A stretch of DNA of 6,812 bases, from the NCBI GenBank assembly GCA_016190245.1, contig JACPQY010000062.1, positions 1-6,812 on the forward strand. Reading direction: 5' to 3'. Position numbers and translations under genes: made by a program. Position 1 is the stretch's first letter. Every line of letters begins with the position of its first letter. Positions 2,153 to 6,573 of the stretch are shown here, piece by piece. The notes beneath the pieces were generated by a model. It searched no databases. It was not told the DNA's origin and worked only from the letters and a program-made list of their open reading frames with translations. Origin of the DNA: Nitrospirota bacterium. GTDB lineage: Bacteria > JACPQY01.

Positions 2153-2752
2153 ATGGCCATCAAGCACCTCATCCTGTCCGAACTGACGCGAGGGCCCGCC
2201 CACGGGTACGAGTTGAACCGCAGGCCTCTCCAGCCCCTGCACACGGACTTCGGCGTGACGAAGCCCCACATCTATGCCGCGCTGCGCTCTTTGGAGGAGG
2301 ACCGACTCGTGCGCCATCGGTCCGCCCGCAGCGGTCGGTTTCCCGAAAAGCGGCGGTACTGGATCACGGCGGCAGGCCGTCGCCACCTCAAGGAATGGCT
2401 GAAGGCCCCGACGGATGAATCTCCCTCGGCCACCTTGGCGATGGCCGCTTGGGACCCGTTCGCGGCCAAGGTCTACGCTCTGGGAGCCGCCGAGCCGTCC
2501 GCGAGGCGGCGAAAGGCCCTGCAGCAGCTCGCGCAGACCGAAGAACGCATCAAGGCATACGGAAAGGCTCTCGTCAGCGCTATGGGTGGGCGCGATTCGC
2601 GGTTGCGATGGGTCCTATCGCATGGCCTCGGGCTCGAGCGGGCGCGTCTGGCGTGGCTACGATCGTTGGCCGGGAGGCGGAGGCGCCCGTTGCGCAGGGG
2701 CAGGGTGACTACTCGGCTCGTAAACCGTGAATCATCAGGTTGGAGTCGCTAG
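2153..2752 (+). CDS. PadR-family transcriptional regulator
   Basis: This 199-residue protein has the PadR winged-helix layout at residues ~4-85. The opening IKHLILSELTRGPAHGYEL is the standard first helix and turn, TKPHIYAALRSLEEDRLV is the recognition helix region, and KRRYWITAAGRRHLKEWL is the wing and following helix. Residues ~93-172 (WDPFAAKVYALGA..., QLAQTEERIKAYGKAL, LGLERARLAWLRSLA) match the helical C-terminal dimerisation region of the PadR/AphA-like subfamily. The last ~25 residues are Arg-rich and look like an added tail. PadR proteins are usually repressors next to efflux or stress genes, but no such target is present here. The next gene on the same strand, 66 bp downstream, is a recombinase, so the regulon cannot be inferred. 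The start is the only ATG that gives the full N-terminal helix. Confidence 0.9.
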   Translation: MAIKHLILSELTRGPAHGYELNRRPLQPLHTDFGVTKPHIYAALRSLEEDRLVRHRSARSGRFPEKRRYWITAAGRRHLKEWLKAPTDESPSATLAMAAWDPFAAKVYALGAAEPSARRRKALQQLAQTEERIKAYGKALVSAMGGRDSRLRWVLSHGLGLERARLAWLRSLAGRRRRPLRRGRVTTRLVNRESSGWSR

Positions 2753-2818: not shown

Positions 2819-3757
2819 ATGAATGTGTCCGCGGCGATTGAGCAATTCCTGGACTACGTTCAGGTTGAGAAAGGCCTGTCTCCCCATACGCTAGAGAACT
2901 ACCGTCGCTGGCTGGATCACTTGATGTCTTGGCTCAAGTCGAAGGGTCCCGGGGACATTCTTGTCAGCGCCCTCACGCCAGATACGGTATGGAAATACCG
3001 GCTGTTTCTGGCGGGTCGTCCGAAGGCTAAGGGGCACGGTCGTGGACCTGTAAGTCGGACGACCCAGAGGTACTTCTTGATTGTGATGAGAGCCATGCTC
3101 CGATACCTGGCGAAGCGCGGCGTCCAAGCCATAGGTCCCGAGCAGGTCGACTTGCCGAGGCCGAACCCAGCCCGCGTCAAGGTGCTGGACGGACAGGCCG
3201 TCGAGCGCCTGCTCGCCGCGCCAGAGACGCGGAGGCCACGGGGTCTTCGCGACCGTGCTCTGCTTGAGGTCCTGTTTTCAACCGGTTTGCGTGTCTCCGA
3301 ATTGGTCGCACTGGATCGCGATCGAGTGAATCTGACGGACGGCGAGTTCTCGGTGATTGGCAAGGGCGGGAGGACTCGGGTGGTTTATTTGTCGGATCCG
3401 GCGCGTCAATGGTTGGCCAAATATGTCGCGGGTCGAAAGGATAATGAAAAGCCGCTTTTCGTCACAAGCCGGGGGCATCCGGGATCATCGCAATGGGCCA
3501 AGCGCCTGTCCGTACGCTCGGTCCAACATCTGGTCAAGCTCTATTGCCGAAGAGCTGGGATAACATTGCCGGCGAGTCCGCACACGCTACGCCACAGCTT
3601 CGCGACCGACCTCCTCGGCCACGGCGCCGACCTGAGGAGCGTCCAGGAGCTTCTCGGCCACAAGAACGTGGCGACGACGCAGATATACACGCATCTTACC
3701 AATCCTCAACTTCGGGATGTTCACAGGAAATTCCATCGTGGGGGGAGATCGAGCTAG
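2819..3757 (+). CDS. Tyrosine recombinase, XerC/XerD type
   Basis: This 312-residue protein has the usual Xer length and order. An N-terminal SAM-like core-binding domain spans ~4-110 (AIEQFLDYVQVEKGLSPHTLENY), and the catalytic domain ~120-305. All catalytic residues are present: R158 in STGLRVSEL, K182 in GKGGRTR, H255 and R258 in HTLRHSF, H281 in LLGHKN, and nucleophile Y290 in TQIYTHL. It should cut and rejoin DNA through a 3'-phosphotyrosine link, resolving dimers at a dif-like site or moving an element. XerC, XerD and phage/element integrases of this subtype cannot be separated safely here, so no symbol is given. A weak Shine-Dalgarno (AGAGAAG, 2809-2815) precedes the ATG. Codon 261 onward is duplicated downstream, and codon use changes within the last ~25 codons, pointing to a mosaic 3' end. 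Confidence 0.95.
   Translation: MNVSAAIEQFLDYVQVEKGLSPHTLENYRRWLDHLMSWLKSKGPGDILVSALTPDTVWKYRLFLAGRPKAKGHGRGPVSRTTQRYFLIVMRAMLRYLAKRGVQAIGPEQVDLPRPNPARVKVLDGQAVERLLAAPETRRPRGLRDRALLEVLFSTGLRVSELVALDRDRVNLTDGEFSVIGKGGRTRVVYLSDPARQWLAKYVAGRKDNEKPLFVTSRGHPGSSQWAKRLSVRSVQHLVKLYCRRAGITLPASPHTLRHSFATDLLGHGADLRSVQELLGHKNVATTQIYTHLTNPQLRDVHRKFHRGGRSS
3599..3742 (+). repeat. Direct repeat copy 1: functional 3' end of the recombinase gene
   Basis: These 48 codons (F261-G308 of the recombinase) recur at 4435-4578. Aligned without gaps, 46 of 48 residues agree (T263/M and G267/S differ), but 36 of 144 nucleotides differ, 33 of them in synonymous codons. The longest shared exact block is CTCGGCCACAAGAACGT (3653-3669). 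Codons before about 3682 almost all end in G or C (27 of 28). After that only 8 of 20 do. Confidence 0.9.
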
Positions 3758-3761
3758 GGAC

Positions 3762-4421
3762 ATGGCCAAGATTCGAGGCAAAGATGCGTCCAAGCGTTTT
3801 CGAGGATGGACGATGGCGCATCTCGATGATGGCTTTAAGAGATTCATGAGGGAGCACGGACGACTCCCGGACTGGAAAGAAGTGAACGCTTGCAGCTACC
3901 TCCCAAGTACACGCCAAATCCAGGACCGATTTGGTGGCTTGACGGGCCTGAAAAAGAAACTCGGGTACGCGGATGTATCATTTGGTACAGGAACTCACCG
4001 GTCCGCCATCGCATCACGCACGGGATCACGGGGGCTCGAGCATGAACTCAGAATTGAAGGAAAACTCATCGAGCGATTCGGGGAGGTCTTCGTGCATGGT
4101 GAGAAACGGATCGGTGCCACTCGCAAGCGCGTGGATTTTTTCGTATTCACTGCCGATGGGCCATTCGCCGTGGATGTATTCGATTCGGATGACATCCACT
4201 CCTTCATTGTCCATCTGAATATTAAGCTCAGGCGGTACGAAGACTTTCCCTCCGAGGTCCCTCTCTTGCTGGTATGCATGAACCAGGCTCTCTCAGACGA
4301 CAGGATCGAGGCAATTCTGGCGGCAAAAGAGAGGAAAGTACCGGAGTCTTTCCGGGTCCTTGCGTACGCAGGATTCCTGAAATCACTCCATGAATTTCGG
4401 CCACACAAGTGGCCGATGTGA
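3762..4421 (+). CDS. Putative homing-endonuclease-like protein (HNH-associated repeat plus possible PD-(D/E)XK/Vsr-like domain)
   Basis: This 219-residue protein is read from the ATG four bases after the recombinase stop (TAG ggac ATG), an arrangement favouring translational coupling. An ATG at 3717 would overlap the recombinase and is less likely. Residues ~18-70 ([40 protein letters not shown]) resemble the DNA-binding repeat associated with homing endonucleases (HNH_repeat family). Residues ~91-160 fit a restriction-endonuclease-like fold: E93/E95 in the first helix, RVDFFVF (D125), [13 protein letters not shown] (D138, H146), then KLRRYEDF. The usual lysine after D138 is missing (DVF rather than DxK), so it may be a Vsr/EDxHD-type variant or inactive. 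No HNH motif was found. Base composition and third-position GC are clearly lower than in the flanking genes, suggesting transfer. The family assignment is a motif-level judgement; otherwise it is an uncharacterised protein. Confidence 0.6.
4398..4415. other. Hairpin at the 3' end of the endonuclease-like gene
   Basis: CGGCCAC (4398-4404) and GTGGCCG (4409-4415) form a perfect 7-bp stem with an ACAA loop inside the last codons of the gene. No T-run follows, so it is not a classic intrinsic terminator. CGGCCACA..AAG also echoes the CGGCCACAAG block conserved in both recombinase 3'-end copies. Confidence 0.4.
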
Positions 4422-4434
4422 TAGAGTCTCCGAC

Positions 4435-4587
4435 TTCGCCATGGATCTGTTGAGCCACGGAGCGGATTTGAGGTCGGTGCAGGAACTCCTCGGCCACAAG
4501 AACGTCGCCACCACTCAGATCTACACCCACCTCACCAATCCCCAACTCCGCGACGTCCATCGGAAGTTCCACCGCGGGAACAGGTAG
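4435..4587 (+). pseudogene. Detached 3' remnant of a Xer-type recombinase gene (direct repeat copy 2)
   Basis: This stretch encodes [20 protein letters not shown]...[24 protein letters not shown] and a TAG stop. It corresponds to codons 261-308 of the recombinase at 2819-3757 plus a different two-residue end. It holds the LLGH histidine and the tyrosine but lacks the other catalytic residues and the whole N-terminal two thirds, so it cannot be an active recombinase. Homology begins abruptly at 4435, 14 bp after the endonuclease-like gene stops. The same frame is open from an ATG at 4390, which overlaps the end of the endonuclease-like gene out of frame, so a 65-residue product is possible but not expected. 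Its G/C-ending codons (about 40 of 48) match the GC-rich surroundings, suggesting that it is the original resident 3' end. Confidence 0.85.
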
Positions 4588-4637
4588 CCGCAGCCCTTAG
4601 GCCGCGCTGGTCACGCTCCTTGAAAGGTGCGCCTACC
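4583..4637. other. Imperfect inverted repeat between convergent genes
   Basis: GGTAGCCGCA (4583-4592, overlapping the remnant's stop codon) and TGCGCCTACC (4628-4637) pair at 9 of 10 positions around a 35-bp spacer. The GGTAG..CGCA start resembles the REP units at 6432-6501. It may be a decayed REP pair or a transcript-end structure between the plus-strand genes and the minus-strand cyclase gene. Evidence is thin. Confidence 0.25.
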
Positions 4638-6382: not shown

Positions 6383-6573
6383 TTAATTAGACTCCTGAGA
6401 CCCCTGTTTTGTTCCAAGCTGCATTTTTGGGCGCACCCATCAAAGGGTGCGGCTACCTGCCGGGAGCGTCCTCGGTGGTAGCCGCGGGCTTCATGCCCGC
6501 GCCGCACAGGCTTCGGGAGTGTGCCCCAAAACCGGCCCGGAAGAGAAGGTAAGCCCCGTGAGTCTAATCTTAA
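6383..6573. repeat. ~190-bp quasi-palindrome enclosing a REP pair, MITE-like
   Basis: Nested inverted segments share nearly one centre. TTAGACTC (6387-6394) pairs with GAGTCTAA (6560-6567). Both are bordered by TTAA, with two extra bases on the right. TTTTGGGCGCAC (6425-6436) pairs imperfectly with GTGCCCCAAAA (6521-6531). The REP pair lies in the middle. It could be a small non-autonomous mobile element. No target-site duplication is certain. Confidence 0.45.
6432..6501. repeat. BIME-like pair of inverted GTAG-headed REP hairpins
   Basis: The right unit is GGTAGC, then CGCGGGC-TTCAT-GCCCGCG (stem 6483-6489/6495-6501). The left unit, on the minus strand, is GGTAGC, then CGCACCC-TTTGAT-GGGTGCG (stem arms 6432-6438/6445-6451). 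The heads (GCGGCTACC 6449-6457, GGTAGCCGC 6477-6485) are perfect inverted copies of each other. A GTAG tetranucleotide followed by a hairpin is the signature of REP sequences mobilised by RAYT transposases. No RAYT gene is in the window. Confidence 0.7.

Follow-up and report, generated by a model that had tools for sequence, protein, structure and literature searches.

Background

In T4-like phages, free-standing homing endonucleases encoded beside conserved genes spread by break repair, in the course of which the flanking sequences are co-converted. Homing nucleases can occupy essential genes within introns and inteins because these excise themselves at the RNA or protein level. A third way, known from fungal mitochondria (PMC3630166), is to replace the end of the target gene. 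C-terminus-replacing mORFs of this type reside in atp6 of Allomyces macrogynus and in atp6, atp9, cox2 and nad3 of Glomus sp.; the two copies of the Glomus atp6 tail share 63.5% of their nucleotides and 91% of their amino acids, and endonuclease-driven mobility of this type of element is stated to have been shown biochemically (PMC3630166). In Escherichia coli, the icd gene is restored after integration of prophage e14, and the former gene end persists as an icd' pseudogene of 163 bp (PMC6379469). A literature search outside which most subscription journals lay returned no paper on C-terminus replacement by a homing nuclease in bacteria.

The locus described here concerns an xer gene. Xer systems with a single recombinase are represented by XerS/difSL and XerH/difH (PMC2731167, PMC5357621), and in XerS/difSL the dif site is linked to the one xer gene (PMC2731167).

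Organization of the xer locus

The stretch of DNA analysed (the window; 6,812 nt) spans all of the 6.8-kb contig C55. The metagenome-assembled genome to which it belongs totals 3.29 Mb on 86 contigs and is 84.8% complete, and the locus is seen without longer-range context. From left to right, it carries a HEAT-repeat gene (minus strand), a PadR-type regulator gene, xer, a gene of 219 codons, an isolated xer tail, and a GAF-GGDEF-PilZ gene (minus strand). G001, the only other genome of the phylum that was available for comparison, belongs to the same family and to another genus. In both genomes the PadR-family regulator gene (2153–2752, plus strand, as are all window features described below) lies directly upstream of xer, so that, judged by gene order, the xer locus is resident.

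The xer gene (2819–3757) codes for a complete Xer-type tyrosine recombinase of 312 aa, as indicated by Pfam and NCBIfam profiles (Phage_integrase, E = 1.7e-43; SAM-like N-domain, E = 1.9e-11), by a search of its own genome, and by 74% amino acid identity to the product of the G001 xer gene. Its scores did not reach the curated XerC and XerD cut-offs, and it was a poor match to XerS. Other tyrosine recombinases are present, and the window xer is the only full-length XerC/D-sized member found in its own genome, which is 84.8% complete. Neither this genome nor G001 yielded another XerC/D-sized recombinase that matched about as well, so the window xer is probably the host's own.

The GC content of the insert, 0.53–0.56 as against 0.64–0.70 around it, agrees with the lower value that the initial annotation had ascribed to the gene downstream of xer. 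Group I or group II introns and other structured RNA elements were sought with Rfam, which gave no match in the window.

A dif-like palindrome upstream of xer

Between the PadR gene and xer, at 2767–2798, the window contains the sequence ATCTTGCGCATAA-TAGATG-TTTCAAGTAAGAT, in which two inverted arms of 13 nt enclose a 6-nt spacer. Its counterpart in G001, ATACCGCGTATAA-TGGCTG-TTTCATACGGTAC (L007, 1446–1477), occupies the same place in the same register, and both genomes contain the palindrome core a single time. In each palindrome, 8 of the 13 arm positions pair, a value reached by 1.1% of random 32-mers; the sequences of the outer arms are not the same in the two genomes but remain largely complementary. 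As linkage of a dif site to a lone xer gene is known from XerS/difSL, the palindrome suggests itself as a candidate dif site of a single-recombinase Xer/dif system, with a conserved promoter as the alternative.

The duplicated xer 3' end and the empty site in G001

The initial annotation had described a complete Xer-type gene, a further gene four bases downstream, and an isolated second copy of the recombinase's 3' end. Open reading frames, a nucleotide repeat (145 nt, 75% identity, 3598–3742 versus 4434–4578, spacing 836 nt) and a protein match (translation of 4432–4584 versus Xer residues 260–310, 92% identity, E = 8.7e-26) bear out this arrangement, and the duplication of the tail is far beyond chance. 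The second copy, given originally as the last ~50 codons with nothing in front of them, could be delimited more closely: it comprises 50 codons (261–310) and a stop codon (4435–4587), lacks the 5' part, and probably represents the displaced original 3' end of xer, with 80% nucleotide identity to the 3' end of the G001 xer gene. The intact gene has its own tail at codons 261–312 (3599–3754), which, based on the repeat and on the third-position identities given below, is a candidate replacement C-terminus; its last ~50 codons are presumed to have been imported. The intact tail includes H281 and the catalytic-type Y290, and the displaced tail holds both positions.

The first homologous codon of the remnant is F261 (nt 4435), immediately after HTLRHS, and the junction sits at the most conserved motif of the recombinase family (HTLRHS260|F261). 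On the right, 13 nt (4422–4434) separate the stop codon of the 219-codon gene from the displaced tail; the extent of this right junction follows from direct reading, and the blastn match to the empty site begins at 4435. The sequence common to both sides around the junction amounts to about 6 nt (CTTCGC), and six of the first eight codons to the right of it differ between the intact tail and the remnant.

In G001, the PadR gene is followed by one uninterrupted xer gene of 308 codons, which reads straight through the junction, the S260 codon being joined in frame to the codons found in the remnant. This is the configuration that had been predicted for a relative with an empty site, namely direct joining of codon 260 to the remnant's codons. 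In the alignment of the window with G001, the start of the PadR gene (208 aligned nt) is 71.6% identical and the whole intact xer gene 69.5%, and the remnant aligns separately to the 3' end of the G001 xer gene (156 nt at 80.1%, blastn).

At the end of the displaced tail (4583–4603) a GC-rich short palindromic repeat (GGTAGCCGC...) was noticed which appears again at 6442–6497 and is possibly a dispersed repeat element.

The 219-codon orphan gene

The gene between the two tails (3762–4421) starts with an ATG at 3762, 4 nt after xer, and ends with a stop codon at 4419–4421; an alternative in-frame ATG at 3717, inside xer, would extend the product from 219 to 234 aa. The GC contents of its three codon positions (0.59/0.41/0.60) follow a coding-type pattern, and an equally long open frame arose in 12 of 2000 shuffles of the stretch. 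Its codon score is low compared with native genes (−0.028).

The initial annotation had taken the gene for one of a homing-type nuclease. The N-terminal third of the protein weakly resembles PF18780 (HNH_repeat, a homing-endonuclease-associated repeat), the isolated-domain match (E = 0.0024) reaching 18.6 bits against a cut-off of 26 bits; on the other side, no relatives were found in the collections listed below, and AlphaFold models computed without relatives were of low confidence (pLDDT 33 and 39). The C-terminal stretch includes the segments KRVDFFVF, NIKLRRY and VPLLLVCMN, in that order, and by eye we infer that this region may be ordered like a PD-(D/E)XK or Vsr-type core, with E93/E95, D125, D138–D144 and H146 as the residues in question. 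The product is a candidate homing-type, site-specific endonuclease.

Comparison with PHROG, NCBIfam, PADLOC and the PDB gave no informative match to the orphan protein. Relatives were absent from the genome contigs, viral contigs, phages and plasmids searched, from 386 genomes across phyla, from a second set of 375 genomes (which overlaps the 386, at least in its listed genomes), and from 31 genomes of four small phyla. Of the weak matches in the scan of the 386 genomes (E 0.001–0.01), those inspected (L038, L039 and L042) overlapped ordinary, unrelated genes and were taken as chance. Other HNH_repeat proteins of the own genome, of G001 and of the 386 genomes were likewise dismissed as relatives, as they had another architecture or gave no phmmer match. 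Multi-repeat HNH_repeat (PF18780) proteins with no recognisable nuclease domain are encoded in both G001 (L047, C64) and the own genome (L048, G000:C79).

Divergence of the two tails and extent of the presumed foreign tract

Over the 50 shared codons, the intact tail and the remnant agree in 94% of the amino acids, 73% of the nucleotides and 38% of the third positions. Each is more similar in nucleotide sequence to the tail of G001, with values of 96%, 77% and 52% for the intact tail and of 94%, 79% and 56% for the remnant, and in a codon bootstrap the two tails of the window formed the closest pair in 3% of the trials (P = 0.03). Since G001 resembles each of the two tails more closely than they resemble each other, the second tail is unlikely to have arisen by recent duplication within the locus. 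One tail would instead have been imported from a diverged relative and the other displaced, so that the two would stem from different lineages. With G001 as the one relative for comparison, the remnant was the nearer of the two tails in 66% of the bootstraps.

Differences between the tails affect most synonymous sites and hardly any residues, which argues that both were under selection until recently. In the case of the remnant, its 94% identity to the G001 protein and a codon usage that ranks at the median of the genome (0.51) likewise point to a native-like sequence that was selected until recently. Judged by its missing 5' part, the remnant should be without function on its own; as it cannot work alone, yet is little decayed, its displacement appears to have been recent.

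The claim that the C-terminus of the intact gene had been imported is thus supported with respect to the different origins of the tails, as seen from their 38% identity at third positions, whereas replacement confined to the C-terminus did not find support: when synonymous identity to G001 was tested along xer for a change point, no significant breakpoint emerged inside the gene (p = 0.25). The fraction of codons identical to those of G001 is 0.45 in the intact tail and 0.34–0.52 in the xer body, and the tail does not clearly stand out from the body as foreign. Codon usage gave no signal that would mark the left crossover. The imported tract may start near codon 260 or, by co-conversion, anywhere up to the start of xer; as no breakpoint was detected, most of the gene, or the whole of it, may derive from the donor.

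The same absence of a breakpoint between body and tail speaks for an alternative that we regard as unlikely, namely import of a whole gene without homing, in which a diverged xer together with its neighbour recombined into the resident locus, the resident 5' part was deleted, and the orphan gene is a passenger. The below-median codon scores of both the xer body and the orphan gene, and the unproven nuclease identity of the latter, would also fit. However, the xer body of G001 is similarly low in codon score, so that the low score of the window xer body in its genome is no mark of foreign origin or import, and whole-gene import leaves unexplained why the remnant starts exactly behind HTLRHS, why the gap measures 13 nt, and why the insert consists of one gene.

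Still less probable is an old tandem pair of xer genes flanking the orphan gene, of which the downstream member was truncated later from its 5' side. The tails have indeed diverged as between genera, as old paralogues would have done, but a second closely matching XerC/D-sized xer gene is present neither in G001 nor among the genes found in the own genome. A tandem arrangement, which the initial annotation had named as the finding that would speak against an insertion, was not seen in G001, the one relative, where xer is single and uninterrupted. The remnant, moreover, encodes 94% of the residues of the G001 tail, and the second gene would have to have been functional until a recent truncation.

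Proposed mechanism of insertion

With a probability that we put at slightly below one half (about 0.48), a selfish unit consisting of a replacement xer 3' end and a probable endonuclease gene entered the resident single-copy xer gene by homing. The best reading of the locus is a C-terminus-replacing insertion of the fungal mORF type, or the same event with co-conversion of more of xer. Homing is favoured because it accounts for the exact right junction, for an insert that is one gene and nothing else, for the intact xer gene and for the diverged tails.

The enzyme would cut an unoccupied xer gene within the conserved stretch that encodes HTLRHS|FATDLL, and repair of the break would use as template a donor in which a diverged xer is followed by the nuclease gene. 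On the left side, recombination within or upstream of xer would result in a complete, working gene with the donor's tail. On the right side, the end of the nuclease gene would be joined to the cut resident gene, whose last 50 codons would be left downstream as a dead remnant. A junction in the best-conserved motif of these recombinases is as expected of a homing target. If homing took place, the tail that came with the nuclease gene should also be resistant to the enzyme; the codon differences to the right of the junction (six of eight) are consistent with such resistance, but are no proof of it.

Site-specific integration into the xer 3' end, by which the gene is restored as in e14/icd, followed by loss of the remainder of the element, would lead to the same outcome, an imported tail that restores the target and an old 3' end that becomes a pseudogene. 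We nevertheless consider it highly improbable, as the insert contains no recombinase domain, the repeat spacing of 836 nt corresponds to the tail plus one gene, and the ~6 nt common at the junction are short for an attachment core. The least probable explanation is a misassembly in which sequences of two strains or organisms were fused at 4422–4434. The origin of the short 6.8-kb contig from a metagenome-assembled genome might suggest it, but the lack of a junction repeat that could prompt the assembler and the like base composition of both flanks argue against it.

Within the homing reading, we tentatively propose, as a possibility of somewhat lower standing than the insertion itself, that the locus harbours a chromosomal bacterial homing element that does without splicing, made up of an orphan nuclease and a resistant tail for the host's only Xer recombinase. 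Taken jointly with this proposal, and with equal reserve, the target would be the codons of the most conserved catalytic motif of the Xer family, and the nuclease family would be new.

Recurrence of such insertions, which the initial annotation had envisaged, did not emerge: no second case was found in the collections searched, which held one relative within the phylum. A search for further xer relatives with both neighbours gave one distant match in the genome contigs and none in the viral contigs.

Isolated C-terminal fragments of recombinases that start at the HTLRHS codons were observed in three genomes: in G002 (L096, 3065–3184, C44), in G032 (L099 and L100, both minus strand, and L101, 106–204) and, as a further one, in the own genome (L106, 3372–3482, C83). 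As recurrences they were rejected, several being internally deleted integron-type integrases and none of those inspected lying near a nuclease-gene match. L096, L099 and L100 resemble integron-type integrase genes with internal deletions whose left ends differ and whose right end is common. The joined sequence of L096, TACCTTGCGG, fits both the upstream YLA-type stretch and the HTLRH codons, and repeat-mediated deletion is therefore a possible cause of fragments of this kind.

Comparison with known systems

The locus may resemble XerS/difSL and XerH/difH in having a single Xer-type recombinase and, in the form of a candidate dif site, a palindrome directly upstream of its gene; the window Xer itself matches XerS poorly, besides falling short of the XerC and XerD cut-offs. 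Intronless homing in T4-like phages usually takes place between genes, does not involve a duplicated 3' end and concerns phage genomes, whereas the window is chromosomal. The e14/icd system resembles the window in that the 3' end of a bacterial housekeeping gene has been replaced by the element's copy and the old end has become a pseudogene. However, e14 is a 15-kb prophage inserted at attachment sites, while the window contains one small gene, no integrase, and a common core of at most ~6 nt.

The likeness to endonuclease-bearing insertions in fungal atp6, to which the initial annotation had drawn attention, extends to details, as the anatomy of the locus matches that of the atp6, cox2 and nad3 mORF hybrids (PMC3630166). 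In these, an imported 3' end that keeps the gene whole precedes an endonuclease-type ORF, behind which lies the native 3' end that was displaced; the window shows the same order with a presumed imported tail and a candidate endonuclease gene. In both, the two tails are near-identical as proteins but far apart as DNA. In contrast to the window's orphan, the enzymes of the fungal mORFs are recognisable (in Glomus as LAGLIDADG or GIY-YIG proteins), and in contrast to the fungal series, the window offers one case, in a bacterial chromosome. If the homing reading is true, it would widen the known range of gene-end replacement to a bacterial chromosome, and there to a gene of chromosome dimer resolution; it would point to a nuclease family missed by current profile libraries, and it would make a housekeeping gene a mosaic of two lineages that misleads gene trees. 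The locus would then be a bacterial counterpart of the fungal mitochondrial mORFs.
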